A stretch of 39,511 nucleotides of DNA from the NCBI GenBank assembly GCA_007695045.1, contig REEP01000037.1, positions 1 through 39,511 on the forward strand, given 5' to 3'. Positions within the stretch are counted from its first letter, which is position 1. The number at the start of each line of letters is the position of its first letter. Position numbers and translations under genes: made by a program. The notes beneath the pieces were generated by a model. The model was not told the DNA's origin. It saw only the letters and a program-made list of their open reading frames with translations, and searched no databases. Source of the stretch: Rhodospirillales bacterium. Its GTDB lineage: Bacteria; Pseudomonadota; Alphaproteobacteria; Rhodospirillales; Defluviicoccaceae. This document shows, piece after piece, positions 4,676-14,021 of the stretch.

Positions 4676-5662
4676 ATGAAGATCCTTTTTGTGACCTCCA
4701 CCCGAATCGGCGACGTGGTCCTCTCGTCAGGCCTGTTGCAGTGGCTCTGCTCCACCTACCCGCATGCCCGGCTGACGGTGGCTTGCGGCCCTCTTGTCAC
4801 GTCGCTGTTCGAGGCACATCCGCAGGTGGATCGCGTTATCGCCGTCAGCAAGCGCCGGTTTGCTGGCCACTGGTACAAACTATGGTCCGATGTTGTCGGA
4901 AGGCGCTGGGATAAGGTGGTCGACCTCAGGCGATCGCTGCTGCCCTGGATGGTACGGGCCAACGCCCGCCACTCAATCCCCCATCCGCGGCCGGGCCAGC
5001 ACCGGGTCCGTCTCATCGCGGCGACCCTCGGCCTTGATCCGCCACCATCACCCTGCATCTGGATCAGTGCGGACGACCAAGCGCGGGCTGCCGAGATTCT
5101 GGCGGGCGGTGACGGGCCGATGCTGGCCGTGGCACCCACGGCAAACTGGGCGGGTAAGATCTGGCCGGCGGAGCGCTTCGCCGAGTTGGTGCGGCGCCTG
5201 ACCGGGCCGAACGGCCGGCTTGCCGGAGCGCGCATCTTCGTCACCGCCGGTCCCACCGAGGAGGCGATGGCGCGGCCGTTCCTGGATGGCGTTCCGGCAG
5301 ACCGGCTGATCGCCCGCATCGGACTGGAACTTCCCGCCGTGGCCGCGGTGTTCCAACGCTGCCGCCTTTTCGTCGGCAACGATTCCGGCCTGATGCATCT
5401 GGCCGCGGCCGCCGGCACGCCCACGGTCGGCCTATTCGGCCCAACCCGGGATGAACTGTACGCCCCCTGGGGGCCGCATTGCCGGGTGGTTCGCACGCCG
5501 GAGAGTGTCGAAGCGTTGACCCGTCATCCCGGCTACCACCATCGCACCACCGGCAGCCTGATGGGCAGCCTGACCGTCGATGCGGTGGTGCGCACGGCAG
5601 ACGACCTCCTGGACGCCACGACGACGGCGCTCCCGCCCGACAAGCCGGCATTGCTCGCCTGA
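4676..5662 (+). CDS. Glycosyltransferase family 9 (heptosyltransferase-like)
   Basis: From ATG 4676 (MKILFVTSTRIGDVVLSSGL) the protein has 328 residues. The opening strand with TRIGDVVLS and the C-terminal donor-site motif FVGNDSGLMHLAAAAGTPTV followed by GLFGPT are hallmarks of GT9 enzymes, which add heptose or related sugars to the LPS inner core from ADP- or GDP-linked donors at the cytoplasmic membrane face. AVAPTANWAGKIWPAERFA is the matching central motif. The frame stays open upstream to about 4511, but that extension has no family resemblance and the ribosome site is weak either way. A 261-bp spacer separates it from the methyltransferase. The gene converges with mnmA with only 6 bp between stops. 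Confidence 0.85.
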   Translation: MKILFVTSTRIGDVVLSSGLLQWLCSTYPHARLTVACGPLVTSLFEAHPQVDRVIAVSKRRFAGHWYKLWSDVVGRRWDKVVDLRRSLLPWMVRANARHSIPHPRPGQHRVRLIAATLGLDPPPSPCIWISADDQARAAEILAGGDGPMLAVAPTANWAGKIWPAERFAELVRRLTGPNGRLAGARIFVTAGPTEEAMARPFLDGVPADRLIARIGLELPAVAAVFQRCRLFVGNDSGLMHLAAAAGTPTVGLFGPTRDELYAPWGPHCRVVRTPESVEALTRHPGYHHRTTGSLMGSLTVDAVVRTADDLLDATTTALPPDKPALLA

Positions 5663-5685
5663 GCGACGTCAGGAGAGGACGTCGC
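5663..5685. terminator. Hairpin between convergent glycosyltransferase and mnmA genes
   Basis: A perfect 8-bp inverted repeat GCGACGTC / GACGTCGC (5663-5670 and 5678-5685) encloses a 7-nt loop, starting one base after the GT9 stop and covering the mnmA stop (5669-5671). There is no strong T-tract. Placed between convergent ends, it is a reasonable bidirectional terminator or 3'-end stabiliser. Confidence 0.5.
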
Positions 5686-6829
5686 GGGCGATCCAGCCAC
5701 CACCCAGGAGCCGGTCACCTCGGTACAAAACCCCAGCCTGACCGGGAGCGACCGCCGCCTGCGGCGTATCCAGCACAACCTCGGCACCGCCGTCGTGCCG
5801 CCCGTAGACTGTGGCCGGTGTGGCCGGACGGGTCGAGCGCACCTTGATGTCCAGGCGCAGCCCAGCGGCAGGAAGTTCTTCGGCCCCGAGCCAGTTTACG
5901 TCGCGCAGATTGAAGCGCTCCGTCAATAGGGCGCTCTCGGGCCCCACCACCACCTGGCGCCGGTTCGGGTCCAGTCGCACGACGAAAAGCGGGTATCCCG
6001 CCGCAACGCCAAGACCGCGCCGCTGGCCCACCGTGAAGTGGGCAATGCCGTCGTGCCGCCCCACCACCCGACCGTCCAGGTCCACGATTTCGCCCGGTTC
6101 CAGTGCGCCCGGCCGCAGCCGTTCCACCACCCGGGCATATCCGCCGGTGGGCACGAAGCAGATGTCCTGACTGTCGGCCTTGTCAGCCACCGGCAGACTA
6201 AAGCGGCTGGCGACCTGCCGGGTCACGTCCTTGCCGAGTTCGCCCAACGGAAAACGCAGAAGACCCAGCTGCGCGCGCGTGGTCGCGAACAGGAAATAAC
6301 TCTGATCGCGGACGACATCGGCCCCCTTGAGCAGGATCGGGCCGTCATCGCCCGGCCGTCGCCGGACATAGTGACCGGTCGCCAGCGCCGCCGCGCCGAG
6401 GTCGCGTGCGGTATCCAGCAGATCGCGGAACTTCACGGTCCGGTTGCAGAGAACGCAGGGCACAGGCGTTTCCCCGGCGCGGTACGCGTCGGCGAACGGC
6501 TCCATCACCTCGGTGCGGAAGCGAGCCTCGTAGTCGAGCACGTAGTGGGGGATGCCGAGCGCTTCGGCGACCTGCCGCGCGTCGTAGATGTCCTGCCCGG
6601 CACAACAGCTTTTGCCCCCCGTCCTTACCGGTGGGCTCGCGGCGCCATGGTCGTACAGTTGCAGGGTGATGCCGACCACGTCGTAGCCGGCTGCGACCAG
6701 CAATGCCGCCGTCGCCGACGAATCGACCCCGCCGGACATGGCCACCACCACCCGGTGACCCCCGGAAGGGCCGGGCAGCGCCATGTCGGCAGCCGGCCTC
6801 CAGCCAATGTCTTCAAGAAGTGCGTTCAT
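5669..6829 (-). CDS. mnmA: tRNA-specific 2-thiouridylase MnmA
   Basis: MnmA activates uridine 34 of Lys, Glu and Gln tRNAs with ATP and inserts sulfur from the IscS persulfide relay to give s2U34. Visible hallmarks are the PP-loop [18 protein letters not shown], the first catalytic cysteine in [11 protein letters not shown], the ATGHYVR motif, the second cysteine in [11 protein letters not shown], and [11 protein letters not shown] plus a C-terminal beta-barrel. ATG 6829 gives 386 residues, close to the family norm. A GTG at 6889 overlaps the tenA stop (GTGA) and would add 20 residues, so it is a serious alternative; ATG 6838 is a third. It is the last gene of the cysE-iscR-desulfurase-fdx-tenA series, which places a sulfur acceptor directly behind its donors. 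Confidence 0.95.
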
Positions 6830-6885
6830 TCCGTCCATACATATCGCCGAGTCGCGGCATTCGGGCAATCGATCCGGCGCCGGCC

Positions 6886-7563
6886 TCACGACGCCGCGTC
6901 CAACCCCATCTGCCAGAAGGCGGTTTCCAACCGCGTGGCTTGGCGGAAGGTGACGGTCAGCGCGGTCAAGCGCTGAGGGCTGCCGCGCCGGACCATCAGC
7001 CGGTCCATGTGTGCCACATGCTCCGCCGCCACGTCCTGATAATCGGCACCGGCGTAGGTATCGATCCAGGCGGCGTAAGCGTTGCCGTCGCGCCTGGTCG
7101 ACGGGTCGGCGGTCAACCGCCGTCCGATCTCGGCGTAACCCACGATGCAGGGTGCCAAGGCCACTGCCAAGTCCAGAAGATCGCCAGCCAGACCCCGTTC
7201 CAGCACGTAGCGGGTATAGGCCATGGTCGCATCCGCCTCTGGCGCTGCGGCCATGTCGGCTTCCTCAAGGCCCCAGCCGCGGCAGTACCCCACATGCAAC
7301 GCCATCTCCTGGCCGACCATTGCATTGAGGCCCGCCGCGGCATGACGAATATCGTCGAGCGTTTCGCCCTTGAATGCCGCCAAGCCATAGGCCCGCGCGA
7401 AATGGATCAGGAACAGGTAGTCCTGGACTAGGTAGTGCCGGAACCCTGCTTCGGGCAAACTCCCGTCGGCAACGGCCTGCACGAACGGGTGCGCCACATA
7501 AGCCTGCCATTCCGTCACGGCAGCGTCCTTCAGACGCTCAAAAAGGGTTTTGCCGGCCGGCAC
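6886..7563 (-). CDS. tenA: TenA-family thiaminase II / aminopyrimidine aminohydrolase
   Basis: This 225-residue, all-helical protein matches TenA, which hydrolyses aminopyrimidine breakdown products of thiamine for salvage. The family's key residues are present: Asp48 in YLVQDYLFL, the nucleophilic Cys139 in [12 protein letters not shown], and Glu213 in [11 protein letters not shown] near the C-terminus. The start is GTG 7563, one base after the fdx stop, with a GGCGGAAG ribosome site inside the fdx end. The stop overlaps a possible GTG start of mnmA. Thiamine synthesis also draws sulfur from IscS in many bacteria, so its place among sulfur-transfer genes may be functional, but that is inference. 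Confidence 0.88.
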
Positions 7564-7564
7564 T

Positions 7565-7903
7565 CTAACTTCCGCCCATCATGTTGTGAGTTCCCGACGG
7601 CAGCACGACCGTCAGCCCGTCCAGGTCCTCGGTCATGCGTATCTGGCAGCCGAGGCGCGATGTCGGGGTAAGGCCGAAGGCCAAGTCGAGCATATCCTCT
7701 TCCTCCTCCGACGGTTCGTCGAGGCGCTCATACCACTCCGGGTCGACGATCACATGGCAGGTCGAACAGGCGAGCGATCCCTCGCACGCCCCCTCGATAT
7801 CCACATCATTGAGGTGGGCGATCTCCAAAACGGACATGCCGAGCGGTGCGTCCACATCTTTACGTTGCGATCCGTCCGGGGATACGAAGGTCATCTTGGG
7901 CAT
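7565..7903 (-). CDS. fdx: [2Fe-2S] ferredoxin, adrenodoxin/Isc type
   Basis: From ATG 7903 ([11 protein letters not shown]) the product is 112 residues with the vertebrate-type ligand pattern C40-x5-C46-x2-C49-x36-C86 ([12 protein letters not shown] then LGC). It also has the acidic patch [12 protein letters not shown] that docks redox partners, and the C-terminal tail [13 protein letters not shown] of Isc ferredoxins. Such Fdx proteins supply electrons to IscS/IscU during cluster assembly, usually as the last gene of iscSUA-hscBA-fdx. Here it follows iscS across a 160-bp repeat-filled spacer with no scaffold or chaperone gene. A TTG at 7936 in the repeat would extend it by 11 residues; ATG 7903 fits the family better. 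Confidence 0.92.
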
Positions 7904-7921
7904 GGTTGTCGTGCTTTCCCT

Positions 7922-8073
7922 TTCTGGCTCGTTCAAGTTCTGGCTCGTTCAAGTGATGACCTGAGTGGTCAACGCGATCGGTGAGGTGATCGGTGAGGCC
8001 GGTGGCAGGGCGCGCCCGCTTCGCGCGGTCCCATGTCTCACTTGGGCGTCTCACTTGGGCGTGTCACATGGGC
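7922..8073. repeat. Cluster of three unrelated short tandem duplications between iscS and fdx
   Basis: Three tandem arrays fill most of the iscS-fdx spacer. A 16-bp unit (TTCTGGCTCGTTCAAG) is present twice without mismatch at 7922-7937 and 7938-7953. An 11-bp unit (GATCGGTGAGG, 12-bp period) is present at 7976-7986 and 7988-7998. A 13-bp unit (GTCTCACTTGGGC) is present at 8035-8047 and 8048-8060, with a third copy at 8061-8073 carrying two mismatches that holds the iscS stop codon (8064-8066). Units differ in sequence and period, so this is repeated local slippage or repair scarring rather than one satellite. Confidence 0.9.
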
Positions 8074-9293
8074 GCGGTCGTCCCCGGCACCGAGGCCTCC
8101 TCCGCCCGGATCGATCTTACCGCAGCGACGATGGCGTCCGCGGCTGTTGCCACCTCCGCGTCTGTCGTACCGCGGCCGAGACCGATGCGGATGCTGCACC
8201 CGGCCAAGTCGGCATCCAGACCCATGGCGCGCAGAACATAGGACGGCTCCACCGCGGCCGACGTGCACGCCGACCCGGTGGAAAGAGCGAGTCCGGGCAG
8301 GCGGGTTAGCAGCATCTCGGCATCTACGCCGGGAAAGGCCAAGTTGATGTTGCCGGGAATTCGGTACTCGGCATGGCCGTTGAGCCGGACATCCGGTACT
8401 CCTGAGCGGATCCGGTCCCACAAGCGCCGGCGCATTCCCAGAAGGCGCTTGGCCTCGTGTGCGCGTTCCGCGGCGGCCACGGCCGCAGCGGCCCCAAAGC
8501 CGACGCAAAGCGGTGCCGGCAGGGTTCCCGACCGAAAACCGCGTTCCTGTCCGCCGCCGTCCATCTCAGGCGCGATGCGGGCCCGCGGGCGCCGCCGCAC
8601 GTAGAGGGCGCCAATGCCCTTGGGTCCGTACATCTTATGGGCGGAAAGGCTCATCAGGTCGATCTGTAGGTCGTTGACGTCCAGTGGCGTCTTCCCGGCG
8701 GCCTGGGCCGCGTCGGTGTGAAACAGCGCCCCCCGGGACCGGCACAGCGCGCCGATCTCGGCGGCAGGCTGGATCACGCCGGTCTCGTTATTCACCGCCA
8801 TAACGGATACCACGGCCGTACGATCATCCACCGCGGCCGCCAGCGCCTCCAGATCGATCAGCCCATCCGCGCCAACTCCAATGCGGGACACCCGAAACCC
8901 CTCGTCTTCCAATCGTCGGACACTCTCCAGCACACACTTGTGCTCCGTCGTGCAGGTGACCACGCCGTCGCGCCCGCGCCCGCGATGGAACCGGGCCGCC
9001 CCCTTGATGGCTAGGTTGTTGGACTCGGTGGCGCCGGACGTGAAAATGACCTCCCGATCTTCCGCTCCCACCAAATCGGCCACCTGCCGGCGCGCCTTTT
9101 CCACCGCTGCCGCCGCCTCGGAGCCGAACGCATGGCTCTTGGAGCTGGGATTGCCGAATACTTCCGTGAAGAATGGCAGCATCGCTTCCACCACTCGGGG
9201 ATCGGTCGGTGTCGTGGCCTGGTAGTCCAGATAGACCGGCCGGCCGACGGATGCCGCCGGACCGCTCTGCATGCGCGTCGGAGTCATGTCCAC
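8064..9293 (-). CDS. iscS: Cysteine desulfurase IscS
   Basis: This PLP enzyme converts cysteine to alanine and a protein-bound persulfide used for Fe-S clusters and tRNA thiolation. The protein of 409 residues shows YLDYQATTPTDPRV, TSGATESNN, TEHKCVLE, the PLP aspartate in FHTDAAQAAGK, the Schiff-base Lys220 in SLSAHKMYGPKG, and the catalytic Cys343 in LALSTGSACTSA on the long mobile loop of group I (IscS/NifS) enzymes. The N-terminus is GTG 9293 (with AAGGG 8 nt upstream) or ATG 9287. It lies 20 bp downstream of a second, divergent desulfurase gene. The stop codon falls inside the degenerate copy of a 13-bp tandem repeat. It is the most likely sulfur donor for the MnmA encoded downstream. 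Confidence 0.95.
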   Translation of the reverse strand: MDMTPTRMQSGPAASVGRPVYLDYQATTPTDPRVVEAMLPFFTEVFGNPSSKSHAFGSEAAAAVEKARRQVADLVGAEDREVIFTSGATESNNLAIKGAARFHRGRGRDGVVTCTTEHKCVLESVRRLEDEGFRVSRIGVGADGLIDLEALAAAVDDRTAVVSVMAVNNETGVIQPAAEIGALCRSRGALFHTDAAQAAGKTPLDVNDLQIDLMSLSAHKMYGPKGIGALYVRRRPRARIAPEMDGGGQERGFRSGTLPAPLCVGFGAAAAVAAAERAHEAKRLLGMRRRLWDRIRSGVPDVRLNGHAEYRIPGNINLAFPGVDAEMLLTRLPGLALSTGSACTSAAVEPSYVLRAMGLDADLAGCSIRIGLGRGTTDAEVATAADAIVAAVRSIRAEEASVPGTTAPM

Positions 9294-9313
9294 AGTTCAA
9301 ACCCTTGTGTCCA

Positions 9314-10450
9314 TCATGCGGCGGAGGCGATACCATCACGCCGGCGCGCCGCGGTCCGCGCGGCGAGGTCGCTCCAGGCCGCAACGAACCGGTCGACATC
9401 ATGTTCGCTGGTGGTCCAGCCCAAGCTGACCCGGATGGTGGAGGCAGCGATCCGCTCGTCCACCGCCATCGCGGCCAGCACGTGGCTGCGTCCCACCTTG
9501 CCGGACGAGCAGGCGGCCCCGGCACTCACCGCCACCCCGGACAGGTCAAGCGCCATAACCTGAACGTCACTCGCGACGCCCGGCAAGCTCACGCATGTGG
9601 TGTTCGGCAAACGCGGCGCACCGGCCGCAATCACCATGCTCATCGGCATCTGCAGCCGCAAACGCGACTCCAGACGATCGCGTAAACCCTCAAGCTTGGC
9701 CGAATCCGGCAGCGTCGCAAGAGCCACCTCGGCGCCGGCACCGAAGCCCGCGATGCCAAGCACGTTTTCCGTGCCGGCGCGTCGGCCGCGTTCCTGCCCG
9801 CCGCCTCGCTGAAGCGGAGAAATGGCCACCCCAGGCCGGACAATCAACGCACCCGACCCCGCCGGCCCTCCGATCTTGTGGGCGGAAAGCGACAGCAAGT
9901 CCACCCCGAGCGAGACGACATCCACCGGGATTTTGCCAGCCGCCTGGATCGCATCGCAGTGCATCAGCGCCCCATGCCGGTGGGCCACGGTCACCACCTC
10001 GCCCACCGGCTGGATCGTCCCGGTCTCGTTATTGGCCAGCATGACGCAAACCAGCGCCGGTCGAGGATCGCCCTGCAGCAGCGCTTCCAGCGCCGCCAGA
10101 TCCACGATGCCGTCACCGTCGACCGGGATGCGTTCGCTTTCCGGAAGGGCTTCCAGCGTCGAGGCGTGCTCCGTCGCCGCCATCAGAACCCGGGATCGCC
10201 CGGTCCCATGCACCGCCAGCATGTTGGCTTCGGTGCCGCCGCTGGTGAACACAACCTCGGTCATGGACGCCCCCACCAGAGCCGCCACACGCGCGCGCGC
10301 TCGTTCGATGCACTGCCGGGCGGCGCGGCCCGAGCGGTGCACAGACGACGGGTTGCCGGCAATCGTCAAAGCTTCCGCGATTGCGTCGGCCACTTCCGGG
10401 CGCACCGGTGTGGTGGCGTTGTGGTCGAGGTAAGCAATCGTCTCAGGCAT
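9314..10450 (-). CDS. Second cysteine desulfurase, NifS/Spl1-like paralogue
   Basis: A 378-residue class V aminotransferase with every desulfurase hallmark: AYLDHNATTPVRPEV, TSGGTEANM, ATEHAST, the PLP-binding MHCDAIQAAGK, Schiff-base Lys192 in SLSAHKIGGP, and catalytic Cys314 in VSAGAACSSGKVG. It is clearly distinct from the neighbouring IscS and matches the extra NifS-like gene that precedes iscS in several alphaproteobacterial isc operons, for example Rickettsia (from memory). ATG 10450 lacks a strong ribosome site. It follows iscR by 51 bp, as expected for a gene under IscR control. Whether it feeds the same acceptors as IscS or a separate path is not shown by sequence. Confidence 0.93.
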   Translation of the reverse strand: MPETIAYLDHNATTPVRPEVADAIAEALTIAGNPSSVHRSGRAARQCIERARARVAALVGASMTEVVFTSGGTEANMLAVHGTGRSRVLMAATEHASTLEALPESERIPVDGDGIVDLAALEALLQGDPRPALVCVMLANNETGTIQPVGEVVTVAHRHGALMHCDAIQAAGKIPVDVVSLGVDLLSLSAHKIGGPAGSGALIVRPGVAISPLQRGGGQERGRRAGTENVLGIAGFGAGAEVALATLPDSAKLEGLRDRLESRLRLQMPMSMVIAAGAPRLPNTTCVSLPGVASDVQVMALDLSGVAVSAGAACSSGKVGRSHVLAAMAVDERIAASTIRVSLGWTTSEHDVDRFVAAWSDLAARTAARRRDGIASAA

Positions 10451-10501
10451 AGCGAAGGCGCAAAGAGGTCGAGGCGGCCCGTGGCTCCCGGGGCGTCCCG
10501 T

Positions 10502-11002
10502 TTATTGGGTGGTGGCGGCATGCACGGCGAGGCTGTCGCCCCCACTGCCGCCAGCGCGCAGCGACTGGAACAGTGCCCGGCTGCTGCCAAGAATGCGCCC
10601 CTCGCAGACATCCGCAAGACTGACGGAACTCAGATACAAAAAAATCTGGTTGCCCAGTTCCTCCCACAAATCGTGGGTGAGGCAGCGGCCACGGTGGGAA
10701 TGGCAGCCGGTGGGCGAGCCCGGCGTACAGCGGGTGGCCTTGATCGGCTCGTCCACCGCCAGAATCACGTCGGCCACCCGAAGCTGCGCCGCCGCCCGCC
10801 CGAGCAAGTAGCCGCCGCCGGGGCCACGCACGCTCTTGACCAGCCCGGCCCGCCGAAGCTTGCCAAACAGCTGCTCCAGGTAGGAGAGCGAAATTTCTTG
10901 TCGGTCCGCGATGTCCGCGAGTGTGACCGGTTTGCCGTTGCCGTGGAAGGCGAGGTCGGCCATGGCCATGACGGCGTAGCGTCCTTTGGTGCTGAGCTTC
11001 AC
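10502..11002 (-). CDS. iscR: Fe-S cluster-sensing regulator IscR (Rrf2 family)
   Basis: Start GTG 11002 is chosen because a strong AAAGGAGAT lies just upstream and the product begins VKLSTKGRYAVMAMADLA, as IscR proteins do; 166 residues result. The winged helix (1-65, with SLSYLEQLFGKLRRAGLV as recognition region) is followed by the cluster-binding segment with Cys92, Cys100, Cys107 and His110 (ending RCLTHDLWEEL). This matches IscR's three cysteines plus one histidine, with the longer spacing seen in alphaproteobacteria. With a [2Fe-2S] cluster IscR normally represses its own operon; apo-IscR controls other genes. It heads the desulfurase genes, so autoregulation is expected, but I could not find a convincing IscR box in the 82-bp spacer behind cysE. 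Confidence 0.95.
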   Translation of the reverse strand: MKLSTKGRYAVMAMADLAFHGNGKPVTLADIADRQEISLSYLEQLFGKLRRAGLVKSVRGPGGGYLLGRAAAQLRVADVILAVDEPIKATRCTPGSPTGCHSHRGRCLTHDLWEELGNQIFLYLSSVSLADVCEGRILGSSRALFQSLRAGGSGGDSLAVHAATTQ

Positions 11003-11084
11003 TGCCGGATCTCCTTTGTCACTGCCCGCGCCGGGCCGGTCCCGAGCGGGCCACACCTTGAAACGAAACGCACCGCAGTCAGCG

Positions 11085-11876
11085 TCAGCGGCGCCTGTGA
11101 TCGCCGACCGCAGCCATGGGGGTACTCATGGGGATCCCGTCGTGGGCATCAGCTCTCAGGTCCCTCGCGTCATCGTCGGCAGAAGATCCGGCCTCGCAAA
11201 GACGCGCTTCGAGTTCGCCAATGCGGTTTTGCAGAGCGGACATCTGGGCGCGCATGGTCTCGATCGTGGCCAGCACCGGGTCCGGGCAGCCTTCCGCCGG
11301 AGTGCCATAGGCGACGAACCGTTGCGCGGCCATCCGATCGCGCGGCATCACCGGGTGGGCCGGAATGCCGACGGCGGTCACACCCTTGGGCAGATCGCGC
11401 GAGACCACGGCGTTGGCACCGATCCGCGCCCCCTCGCCAATCGTGATTGGCCCCAGCACCTGCGCACCGGCGCCAACGATCACACCATTCCTGAGCGTCG
11501 GGTGGCGCTTGATGTCCACTTGCGTATGGGAGTCGACCGAGGGGGCAATGCCTCCCAGGGTCACCCCCTGGTACAGGGTCACGTCGTCGCCGATCTCCGA
11601 CGTCTCGCCGATCACCACGCCGAAGCCGTGGTCGATCACGAAGCGGGCGCCGATGGTGGCGCCGGGATGGATTTCAATCGCAGTCAGCAACCGTGCAAAC
11701 TGGGAGATCAACCGCGCCAGCAGCCGGAGGCGGCGCCGCCACAGGGCGCTGGACAGCCGATAGAAAATGATGGCATGGAAGCCGGGGTAACACAGCACAA
11801 CCTCCAGCCGTGACCGTGCCGCCGGGTCACGCGCCATGAATGAATCGATATCTTCTTGTATCCTCTTGAAAAACAT
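11085..11876 (-). CDS. cysE: Serine O-acetyltransferase (short CysE/EpsC type)
   Basis: CysE makes O-acetylserine from serine and acetyl-CoA, the committed step to cysteine. From ATG 11876 ([20 protein letters not shown]) the protein has 263 residues and lacks the long N-terminal helical domain of enteric CysE, so it is the short form. The left-handed beta helix is evident from hexapeptide repeats: [10 protein letters not shown], the catalytic-site [49 protein letters not shown]-terminal coiled-coil-like tail (about residues 195-235, [21 protein letters not shown]) ends in a disordered stretch. It is the first gene of the sulfur series, 82 bp before iscR. The cysteine it leads to is the substrate of both desulfurases. 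Confidence 0.92.
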
Positions 11877-12112
11877 GGTCGCTGCGGTAACTCTGTAGGG
11901 CTCGCATGAAAGGCGCGCTCCGGCTTGCGGTGCGCAATCGGAGCTTCGTTCAACGGCTTCCAATGACGTTTCGACATAATAGGATGTCCGAGTCCGGCAT
12001 TCAAGTATGCAGGGCCAAACAGCAGCGTTTCAATAGCGCTTCCCCGAGCGCGTGACTCGGGTTAACGGCAACGGCTCGCCAGCGGGCCGAGACGGCGGAT
12101 GACGCAGAGACC

Positions 12113-12757
12113 ATGCCCGATGTGATCTTCAACGGAACCGAGGGCCGGCTCGAGGGCCGGTATCATCATTCCAAGCGGCCGTCTGCGCCGGTGGCGCTGG
12201 TTCTGCACCCGCATCCGTTGCAAGGCGGCACCATGAACAACCGGATCGTGTTCGCCCTGTTTCAGGCGTTTCAGCGCCGCGGCTTCTCGGTGCTGCGCTT
12301 CAATTTCCGCGGTGTGGGGCGGTCACAGGGCTGGTTCGATAACGGCCACGGTGAACTCAATGACGGCGCTTCAGCGCTGGACTGGCTGGAAAGCATCAAT
12401 CCAAACGCGGCCGAATGCTGGATCGCCGGCTATTCATTCGGCGCCTGGATCGGCATGCAGCTTATGATGCGCCGTCCCGAAATCACCCGATTCATCACCG
12501 TGGCACCGCCGGCGGGAGCGCAGGATTTCACCTTCCTCGCGCCCTGCCCCGCTTCCGGCCTGATCGTGCACGGCGATGCCGATACGCTGGTACCGATCCA
12601 GGGGGTCGCCAAGCTGGCGGCCAAGCTGGCCCAGCAGCGCAACATCAAAGTAGAATACCATCCCGTCGCCGGCGCCGACCACTTGTTCTCCACGGGCATG
12701 GACGAACTGATGACCGTGGTCGGCGACTACCTGGACCGCGCTCTCGCTCCGGCGTGA
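12113..12757 (+). CDS. Alpha/beta hydrolase (COG2945-like)
   Basis: A 214-residue single-domain hydrolase, the usual size of this small family. The catalytic triad can be read: nucleophile Ser108 in AGYSFGAW (GxSxG), Asp157 in VHGDADTLVP, and His190 in GADHLFS. HPHPLQGGTMNN provides the oxyanion region typical of COG2945 proteins, and FNFRGVGRSQG is a conserved turn. The enzyme is cytoplasmic (no signal peptide); its substrate is unknown, with small esters or acyl groups likely. It is divergent from cysE across a 236-bp spacer in which I see no clear operator, and it converges with anmK with 10 bp between the stops. Confidence 0.85.
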   Translation: MPDVIFNGTEGRLEGRYHHSKRPSAPVALVLHPHPLQGGTMNNRIVFALFQAFQRRGFSVLRFNFRGVGRSQGWFDNGHGELNDGASALDWLESINPNAAECWIAGYSFGAWIGMQLMMRRPEITRFITVAPPAGAQDFTFLAPCPASGLIVHGDADTLVPIQGVAKLAAKLAQQRNIKVEYHPVAGADHLFSTGMDELMTVVGDYLDRALAPA

Positions 12758-12771: not shown

Positions 12772-14021
12772 CGCAGCCCCGCACCCGCCGCAGCAACCCC
12801 GCCCGGCCGATGCATCACCCCGCCCCGGGTTGGCGCGGGCACACCGGTGGTGGACGGCAGGCTGAGCGGCAGCCCCTTGACCGATCGTACCGCCAGGAAC
12901 GCGAAGGCCTGAGCTTCCAGTGCGTCACCGTCCCAGCCGGCTGCCTCCACCGGTTCCACCGGCGCCGGCAAGGCATCGGCCAGCATTGCCATCATCGTGC
13001 CGTTGAGCCGCCCGCCACCGCAGATCAACCAGCGCGACGGCGGCACCGGCAGAAATGCCTGGCCCTGGGCCACGGCACGTACGGTGAAAGCAGTCAGAGT
13101 GGCCGCCCCGTCCTCGGCGCTCAAGCCGACAACGGCATCCAGCACCGCTGCGTAGGTGTTTCGGTCCAGCGACTTGGGCGGTGGCGCCCGAAAATACGGA
13201 TCGCCGAGCCAAGCGGTTACCAAGTCATCCCGCACCCGGCCGCCACGGGCGAGCCGTCCACGTTCATCCCAGCGGCGCCCGGACATCCGCCGCACCCAGT
13301 CATCGACCAGGGCGTTGCCCGGCCCGGTATCGAACGCCATCACAAGGTCACCGCCGTCCGGTGCATCGCCGATCCAAGTAACGTTGGCGACCCCGCCGAT
13401 GTTGAGCACCGCCACCGGCTTCATCACAGACCACGCCATGGCGGCATGGAACAATGAGGCCAAAGGAGCCCCATGGCCACCCGCAGCGACGTCGGCAGAG
13501 CGGAAATCCGCCACCACCGGGATTCCGAGCAAGTCCGCGAGAGCCTGCCCGTCACCCATCTGCCGGGTAAGTCGTCGCTCCGGCCGATGCAGCACGGTGT
13601 GACCGTGAAAACCGACCACGTCGACCGCGGCCGCATCGACCCCAACGGCCGTCAGAAGCCGCTCGACCGCCGCGGCGTGCAGCACGGTCAACTCCCGGAC
13701 CACATCGTCAGCTTCGGTGCCCGGGGCGGATCCCAGCAAGGCGCGCAAGCGGGTACGGAAGGCCTCCGCATAGGGATAGGTGGCGACGCCACCGAAATGC
13801 AGCACGCGCTCACCGTCGGTAGTCAGCAGTGCTGCATCAATGCCGTCCATGGACGTGCCGCTCATCAGCCCCACAGCGACCAGCGGCTTGGTGTCGACGG
13901 TGCGGTCTACCGCATCCTGGCAGCTCTGGGCGGGTCCCGGTGCCGACGTTGTGTCGACGGCGGATTGTGTGCTACAGGCGCCGCCACGGTTGCCGTCCCC
14001 GTCCTCGTTCCACCGGTCCAT
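12768..14021 (-). CDS. anmK: Anhydro-N-acetylmuramic acid kinase AnmK
   Basis: AnmK phosphorylates and opens 1,6-anhydro-MurNAc released during peptidoglycan turnover, making MurNAc-6-phosphate for recycling. The core is unmistakable: [16 protein letters not shown] (nucleotide site), [29 protein letters not shown] (catalytic Asp), [25 protein letters not shown], and [13 protein letters not shown] near the end. The start is unclear. ATG 14021 gives a 42-residue, Asp/Gly/Thr-rich extension with no family resemblance and overlaps the tyrS ATG on the other strand. The only other in-frame start before the GLMSGTS motif is GTG 13874, which trims into the first strand. The gene has no linked recycling genes here, but the L,D-transpeptidase and lipoprotein at 24-25 kb also act on the wall. 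Confidence 0.92.

Follow-up and report, generated by a model that had tools for sequence, protein, structure and literature searches.

A truncated isc operon and a tail-less IscS in an alphaproteobacterium that carries SUF

The loss of ISC in Alphaproteobacteria, and its mutual exclusion with SUF, have been published (PMC10631705). That account follows the replacement across whole groups and, in its accessible text, deals with presence and phylogeny rather than with remnant operons or the tail of the cysteine desulfurase IscS. In Mycobacterium tuberculosis, the accessible part of PMC10848736 describes a truncated ISC with iscS in an operon with trmU/mnmA, alongside a complete SUF. A hybrid isc-suf operon is reported for Caulobacter and Rhodobacter in the available sections of PMC11475020, and direct sulfur transfer from YrvO to MnmA in Bacillus subtilis is recounted in the sections of PMC11784392 at hand. 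For Escherichia coli IscS, the accessible text of PMC2854127 places the C-terminal helix in contact with the scaffold IscU; without residues 376-404, IscU is not bound. In the corresponding part of PMC3750173, residues R220, R223 and R225 of the same enzyme are needed together for binding of ferredoxin, and that paper stated in 2013 that what exactly the isc ferredoxin does was unknown.

Here we describe a locus in a stretch of 39,511 nucleotides (the window; contig REEP01000037.1 of assembly GCA_007695045.1) from a Rhodospirillales bacterium of the Defluviicoccaceae. Genomes are given G numbers and loci L numbers; the window's own genome, 97.6% complete, is G000 and its congener G001. On the minus strand, positions 5669-11963 read cysE-iscR-nifSL-iscS-(160 bp)-fdx-tenA-mnmA, with families assigned by NCBIfam. 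An initial annotation, made from the sequence by a model, had named cysE, iscR, a second desulfurase, iscS and fdx in that order, and the family searches agree while adding tenA, which it had passed over. Curated cut-offs are exceeded by CysE, TenA and MnmA; for IscR, IscS and the ferredoxin the families named are the best matches, at scores under the cut-off.

The upstream border is formed by a divergent gene (12113-12757, plus strand) that adjoins cysE in most of the mapped ISC and SUF loci; from its sequence, rather than from a family call, we take it to encode an alpha/beta hydrolase. The serine O-acetyltransferase gene cysE (11085-11963, minus strand; TIGR01172, 228.7 bits against a cut-off of 210.65) occupies the same place in most mapped related loci, and its true start probably lies further in than that of the listed open reading frame. 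The Rrf2-type regulator IscR (10502-11056, minus strand; TIGR02010, 184.5 bits, under the cut-off of 207.55) retains its Cys/His cluster ligands, TRCTPGSPTGCHSHRGRCLTHDLW, in the same pattern as in ISC relatives. It is followed by nifSL (9314-10450, minus strand; best match TIGR03402, under the cut-off), the first of the tandem desulfurase pair, which is 70% identical in the congener and contains the PLP lysine and the catalytic cysteine in the motifs SAHK and SAGAACSS. Its closest solved relative, 4ixo, is a 'NifS-like protein' that we take to be of Rickettsia origin. The resemblance to the Rickettsia operon that the initial annotation had pointed out is seen again at locus L117, which reads iscR-nifSL-iscS-iscU-iscA.

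The second desulfurase, IscS (8064-9293, minus strand), is assigned from TIGR02006 and a table of its sites and has no C-terminal IscU-docking tail: it matches positions 3-380 of 402 in the profile with about 510 bits, falling short of full length and of the cut-off of 643.2. Comparison with intact tails leaves a residual C-terminus, VRSIRAEEASVPGTTAPM (8064-8120, minus strand), where the tail would be. The iscS stop codon lies at 8066-8064 and the fdx ATG at 7903, so that the spacer is exactly the 160 bp at 7904-8063 given by the initial annotation; in ISC relatives this minus-strand site holds iscU-iscA-hscB-hscA. The ISC-type [2Fe-2S] ferredoxin gene fdx (7565-7903, minus strand; TIGR02007, 88 bits, under the cut-off of 132.1), whose listed frame opens earlier at TTG 7936, encodes all four cluster cysteines and is 79-82% identical to the ferredoxins of ISC members of its family (G004, G009 and G010). 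Between fdx and mnmA, in the window as in many related loci, stands the thiamine salvage gene tenA (6886-7563, minus strand), of the thiaminase II family (TIGR04306, 148.3 bits, cut-off 130). The last gene, mnmA (5669-6889, minus strand; NF001138, over the cut-off), encodes a tRNA 2-thiouridine synthase of the C type, which PMC11784392, in its accessible part, defines by CC ... CxxC ... C, here SCC, PVPCVLCN and DSQDICF. A search for structured RNAs over 5500-12200 gave no Rfam match above the gathering score.

The iscR, iscS, fdx order of a complete ISC system is kept without IscU and HscA. A search with the IscU profile (PF01592, NifU_N/IscU) gave no match in G000 or its congener and was positive in 12 of 14 controls. 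The best HscA score in G000 (TIGR01991) is 650.7 bits, under the cut-off of 708.55 and comparable to what the runner-up, DnaK-like match scores in ISC genomes; genes for HscB and IscX are absent from the locus. In a genome 97.6% complete, these profile searches lead us to reject a move of IscU and HscA to another place. Two SUFBD matches lie on another contig (C17), in a stretch that encodes a regulator 30% like IscR, sufB, sufC, sufD, sufS, a SufE-like gene and an IscA-like gene, and the desulfurases left in the genome are three: NifSL, IscS and one in this suf locus. The initial annotation had suggested that another system (SUF) builds the clusters and had proposed searching the genome for iscU, iscA, hscBA and suf; the searches for IscU, HscA and SUF returned neither IscU nor an HscA above the cut-off, and placed sufBCDS on a contig other than the window's.

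This arrangement, a desulfurase near mnmA in a genome with SUF and without IscU, most resembles that of M. tuberculosis, where, as far as the accessible account goes, SUF is complete and a lone iscS shares an operon with the gene for the tRNA 2-thiouridylase, without IscU, IscA, HscA or HscB as neighbours; M. tuberculosis is the closest precedent for the function of the remnant. Unlike the mycobacterial locus as described in that text, the window retains iscR, the ferredoxin, tenA, cysE and a second, NifS-like desulfurase, and its collapse can be traced through relatives that still have ISC. With the operon of Caulobacter and Rhodobacter, as outlined in the available sections, it shares IscR and an isc-type desulfurase in front. 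There, suf genes replace the scaffold, a layout similar to that of the relatives G029, G037 and G049. In the window's genome suf lies on another contig with its own regulator; what is left of isc has no suf genes beside it, fdx directly adjoins iscS, and two desulfurases stand in front instead of one. Compared with E. coli iscRSUA-hscBA-fdx-iscX (L001), the order iscR, iscS, fdx is shared, and in IscS the residues for catalysis and the arginines for ferredoxin binding are the same, but the window locus is without iscU, iscA, hscB, hscA and iscX, has the additional nifSL, and its IscS has lost the tail. With the YrvO-MnmA pair of B. subtilis, to the extent that it is described in the source consulted, the locus has in common that a cysteine desulfurase accompanies MnmA while the Tus relay is incomplete (TusE was not found in the window's genome); unlike that pair, it comes with two desulfurases, a ferredoxin and TusA, and direct transfer here would be an analogy.

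To follow the locus through relatives, genes were mapped on 60 fetched stretches and 34 more. The borders (divergent hydrolase, cysE, iscR) are common to relatives and the middles differ. Between the same flanking genes, iscS is followed by iscU-iscA-hscB-hscA in 29 loci of the first 60 stretches, and fdx comes next after that block in 25 of them (it is not in the stretch in G018, G045 and G052, and the contig ends in G041). The block also stands behind iscS in G061, G100 and G122, and G004 has it as a fragment, iscA-hscB-hscA-fdx-iscX-tenA. A suf cassette takes the middle in, for example, G029, G037, G038, G049, G104 and G111, and a bare gap like that of the window is found in G001, G020, G043, G044, G047, G073, G084, G094 and G102. 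The gap still contains iscA in G008, G033 and G053, and G027 and G028 have nifSL without iscS. In G002 and G007 the locus is split (L203 and L204 with L054 and L058): cysE-iscR-iscS-iscA-fdx-tenA is in one place, and nifSL and mnmA in another, their matches spaced about 30 bp apart in G007 and 3 kb in G002, while iscS stays with fdx. Of the 29 ISC loci, 18 also have mnmA downstream, so its position here is an ancestral one and does not point to a new role. The proposal of the initial annotation that iscU, iscA, hscB and hscA had been lost from an ancestral isc operon is therefore upheld by the 29 ISC loci with the same flanks, together with SUF elsewhere in the genome; these relatives do carry the intact block behind iscS.

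The two systems hardly overlap. Among 60 genomes, the window's included, 33 have ISC, 25 have SUF, none has both and two (G021 and G023) have neither; the ISC count joins 31 genomes with ISC-type IscU and 32 with HscA over the cut-off, and the SUF count includes G017, in which SUFBD occurs only as a fragment. Matches in a frame of about 300 amino acids beside nifS were taken as NifU and not as ISC-type IscU. Extended to 130 genomes, these 60 included, the searches find ISC-type IscU in 73 and SUF in 49, with both in a single genome, G061, which has a full set of each. Its full ISC locus and its sufBCDS locus (L196 and L197) lie on one contig; as the only such genome of the 130, it may be an intermediate of a switch. 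Neither group was detected by these searches in nine genomes (G004, G016, G017, G021, G023, G084, G093, G119 and G123), of which G004 and G016 have HscA and G017 has the SUFBD fragment. A tree of four flanking proteins requires nine changes between ISC and SUF, four of them forced by starred branches, with G023 coded as ISC by default, G004 as ISC before its HscA was confirmed and G017 as SUF on its fragment; G023 lies among ISC rows and so adds no change. In single-protein trees of mnmA, nifSL, fdx and iscR, 4, 12, 4 and 10 changes are drawn and starred branches force only one. Both states occur within four families: f1, f9, f28 and, through G061, f11. The window's genus groups with G004, the sampled genome nearest to it by flanking genes and one with ISC, inside an ISC-bearing family (support 100/97 with four proteins and 100/98 with seven). 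On these gene trees, the simplest history would be that ISC was lost on the branch leading to the genus of the window, and lost likewise on several others. The SUF genes of five f1 members group with an SH-aLRT of 95 while a single clade of these members is rejected by their locus genes (p-AU 0.015), and for this reason SUF would either have spread within f1 or have coexisted with ISC before differential loss.

The window's IscS has lost its IscU-docking tail, and a similar change recurs in relatives. The tail motif SPL[WF][ED][ML] is present in 29 of 29 IscS proteins from ISC loci versus 0 of 15 from SUF genomes. This count leaves out partial IscS at contig ends (G004, G023 and G032), the ISC genomes G003 and G016, the SUF genomes G034 and G048, and the SUF genomes in which IscS is too short in the stretch (G002, G007, G017, G027, G028, G036, G044 and G055); among these, the motif is absent from the tails of G002, G007, G036 and G044. 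Across the 130 genomes, the state of the tail separates the two systems almost perfectly. The match to TIGR02006 runs to its end, position 402, in 71 genomes, all of which have IscU, and stops at 377-391 in 35, none with ISC-type IscU, 34 with SUF and one with neither (G084, 73% complete). The remaining two IscU genomes are G003, without an IscS match, and G122, in which the tail is intact in another frame; in the latter, an ISC genome, a frame change cuts IscS just before its tail (L198). A further 14 SUF genomes of this draw have no match at the level of IscS (nothing at 1e-90, or only NifS-type). G061, with both systems, retains the tail. Among some SUF genomes the tail appears to decay in stages. 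In the SUF genome G116 (L194) it is of full length and degenerate, RLRAISPHWKRLQENGETQSAALAES; the locus there still has a gene resembling iscX (39%) and, upstream of iscS, one resembling iscA; shortened ends read RLRRTSPLRETA in G102, RLRRTGPLRETA in G043, ALRRRSPA in G020 and G044, and SIRAEEASVPGTTAPM in the window.

The change extends beyond the tail. In the IscU contact set (309-316 and 347), four of the eight columns well conserved in ISC are kept in at most 5 of the 15 SUF-genome IscS proteins, whereas elsewhere before position 376 such erosion affects 11 of 200 columns (Fisher p 0.001). By contrast with these positions, the equivalents of H104, K206 and C328 are kept in all 15, the window's included, and R220, R223 and R225 in 13, 14 and 15 of them; other arginines of the partner patch have been lost more often (R112 is kept in 7 and R340 in 10 of 15). 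W45, at the TusA site, is Trp in 29 of 29 ISC versus 6 of 15 SUF rows. What is new here is that loss of the IscS tail tracks loss of IscU; the replacement of ISC by SUF at group level was already known. A literature search of titles and abstract openings, whose coverage leaves out most subscription papers, returned nothing that links the two losses across genomes.

Outside the order, a scan of named genomes reached the ordinary IscS of many phyla, with few near relatives among the loci found. Of 80 named loci, 67 have both the tail and IscU within 1.5 kb and ten have neither; two have the tail motif without a detected IscU (L171 and L179) and one has IscU without the tail (L164). Elioraea thermophila YIM 72297 reads hydrolase-cysE-iscR-nifSL-iscS-fdx-tenA, with a tail-less IscS and with mnmA 4 kb further on; Roseococcus shares the iscS-fdx-tenA-mnmA portion. 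Seven of the ten genomes with neither feature were checked, and SUFBD was found in all seven. IscU-family matches are weak (1e-18 to 1e-22) or missing in Elioraea, Roseococcus, an alphaproteobacterial MAG and a proteobacterial MAG, and intermediate (1e-26 to 1e-28) in the three acidobacterial genomes, for which the case is less clean. In L164 (7752-9512), from a deltaproteobacterial MAG, a single 586-residue frame runs from IscS straight into IscU with the tail missing at the junction, either a natural fusion without need of docking or an assembly join. In the acidobacterial L171, from 9227 onward, an intact IscS tail precedes an IscU-like frame, the IscU-family match of the genome contains an in-frame stop and SUF is present; this may be ISC in the act of decay, or a sequencing error. 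In L179, whose genome has SUF, the tail is partly retained (RLRLMSPLYEMFSV).

We consider it likely that the isc operon lost iscU-iscA-hscB-hscA after a takeover by SUF, and that what remains supplies sulfur, without a scaffold, to the C-type MnmA and other thio-products. The collapsed-operon history is strongly supported; its direction and the order of events, as well as the destination of the sulfur, are what we infer. SUF would first have taken over cluster assembly, after which the central genes for cluster building, iscU-iscA-hscB-hscA, would have disappeared from the operon, as would the more distal iscX, while cysE-iscR-nifSL-iscS-fdx-tenA-mnmA stayed. With no IscU left to bind, IscS would then have shed the tail that docks it, and constraint on the remaining IscU-facing surface would have eased; the residues for catalysis and the arginines known from E. 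coli to bind ferredoxin were retained. The initial annotation had instead taken the spacer itself as the mark of the event, describing three tandem duplications at the gap, one holding the iscS stop codon, as a scar of deletion and repair. The duplications are real: Tandem Repeats Finder (TRF) reports a 16-bp unit in 2.1 copies at 7922-7954, a 12-bp period in 1.9 copies (of 11 bp) at 7976-7998 and a 13-bp unit in 3.1 copies at 8035-8074, whose third copy holds the stop codon. Two of these spacer repeats, at 66 each, top the TRF scores of the whole window (the next is 46). They exceed chance, and the presence of three within 172 bp speaks for a scar: in 2,000 dinucleotide shuffles of 7904-8075, at least one exact tandem repeat arose in 13 and two in none. 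Yet the congener G001, equally collapsed, has no tandem repeat in its spacer even at a TRF score of 30 (its locus L053 carries a strong 21-bp repeat, score 101, at 13845-13898, away from the spacer), although the collapse is common to both. In 12 other collapsed loci the distance from iscS to fdx is -10 to 311 bp, below 25 bp in seven; the longer gaps are 31 bp in two, 126 bp in G001, 133 bp in G073 and 311 bp in G094. Because an equally collapsed congener is without repeats and gaps in other collapsed loci are mostly short, we regard the reading of the repeats as a scar as highly improbable. The repeats cover only about half of the spacer and look younger than the gene loss, slippage in an unconstrained spacer being the most likely origin. 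Remnants of iscU, iscA, hscB, hscA and iscX were sought in spacers with tblastn and matched at chance level, with E values of 0.33 or worse in that of the window.

Two other readings of the locus were weighed. The tail-less IscS might belong to a long-standing family of its own, adapted to bacteria with SUF, and have been received by transfer, with or before SUF, rather than a product of decay in place. The IscS tree of all rows speaks for such a replacement by joining the tail-less IscS of SUF genomes in one clade (98/97), and so do a 22-row subset that rejects both a clade of family f1 (p-AU 0.002) and a grouping of G038 with G011 (p 0.037), and the f1 SUF genes, which group although the locus genes of the same members reject one clade. 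Eight rows are flagged for long end branches, however, seven of them SUF (0.52-1.07) and the eighth E. coli, and when only the window's genus and 31 ISC rows are kept, the likelihood of the family clade is 4.43 log units higher (p 0.59; the two window-genus rows are flagged for odd letter make-up). The IscS of G043 is nearest in identity to an ISC IscS (78.6% to G019), its clade with G018 and G019 is not rejected in the 22-row subset (p 0.06), and other families show stages of tail decay. As the family clade fares better without the other SUF rows, whose branches are long, decay in place is our first choice and allele replacement seems unlikely. Also unlikely is that the remnant still helps to build clusters, with NifSL or IscS donating sulfur to SufBCD/SufE as a split part of the SUF system. 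In 13 of 31 SUF sets the suf genes do lie inside the same locus, behind nifSL and mostly behind iscS; the iscRS-suf operon of Caulobacter, as presented in the accessible sections of PMC11475020, has this form, and in M. tuberculosis both IscS and Suf are said to contribute to cluster enzymes in the portion of PMC10848736 available. The window's SUF locus, on the other hand, has its own SufS, SufE-like gene and IscR-like regulator, and the IscU face of IscS is eroded.

If the operon did collapse after a SUF takeover, NifSL would be the most likely sulfur donor to the C-type MnmA, by direct transfer for s2U34, and the tail-less IscS with its ferredoxin could serve as a scaffold-free donor to other acceptors of the TusA, ThiI or Moco type, the remnant probably remaining under IscR as a sensor of cluster status. 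Direct transfer from a desulfurase to MnmA appears likely by analogy, because MnmA is of the C type and DsrC/TusE is absent, as it is from 35 of the 60 genomes. That NifSL is the probable donor to MnmA, and IscS with ferredoxin the more general source, is suggested by the split locus of G007, which pairs NifSL with MnmA and IscS with the ferredoxin. TusA occurs in 60 of 60 genomes, so that a TusA route is possible, and for the same reason it is uninformative as the factor deciding whether NifSL is retained. TusE/DsrC is present in 25 of the 60 genomes, and its apparent tendency to occur where nifSL is missing is too weak to claim.

More broadly, and more tentatively, the IscU-docking tail may be a separable module that several alphaproteobacterial families, and perhaps Acidobacteriota as well, discard whenever SUF takes the place of the ISC scaffold. 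Its loss could then yield a stable class of scaffold-free IscS, arising repeatedly, that retains the ferredoxin-binding arginines and works with the ferredoxin of its operon, while a NifS-like desulfurase next to it serves MnmA. If this is true, one end of one protein would report which cluster system a genome uses. The state of the IscS tail makes the loss of the scaffold legible. A single locus lets the exchange of ISC for SUF be followed within one order, from complete operons through in-place suf, both systems and decayed tails to collapsed loci, and among named strains E. thermophila YIM 72297 has almost the layout of the window. Such loci would offer a natural experiment on the roles of IscS, the NifS-like desulfurase and the isc ferredoxin without IscU.
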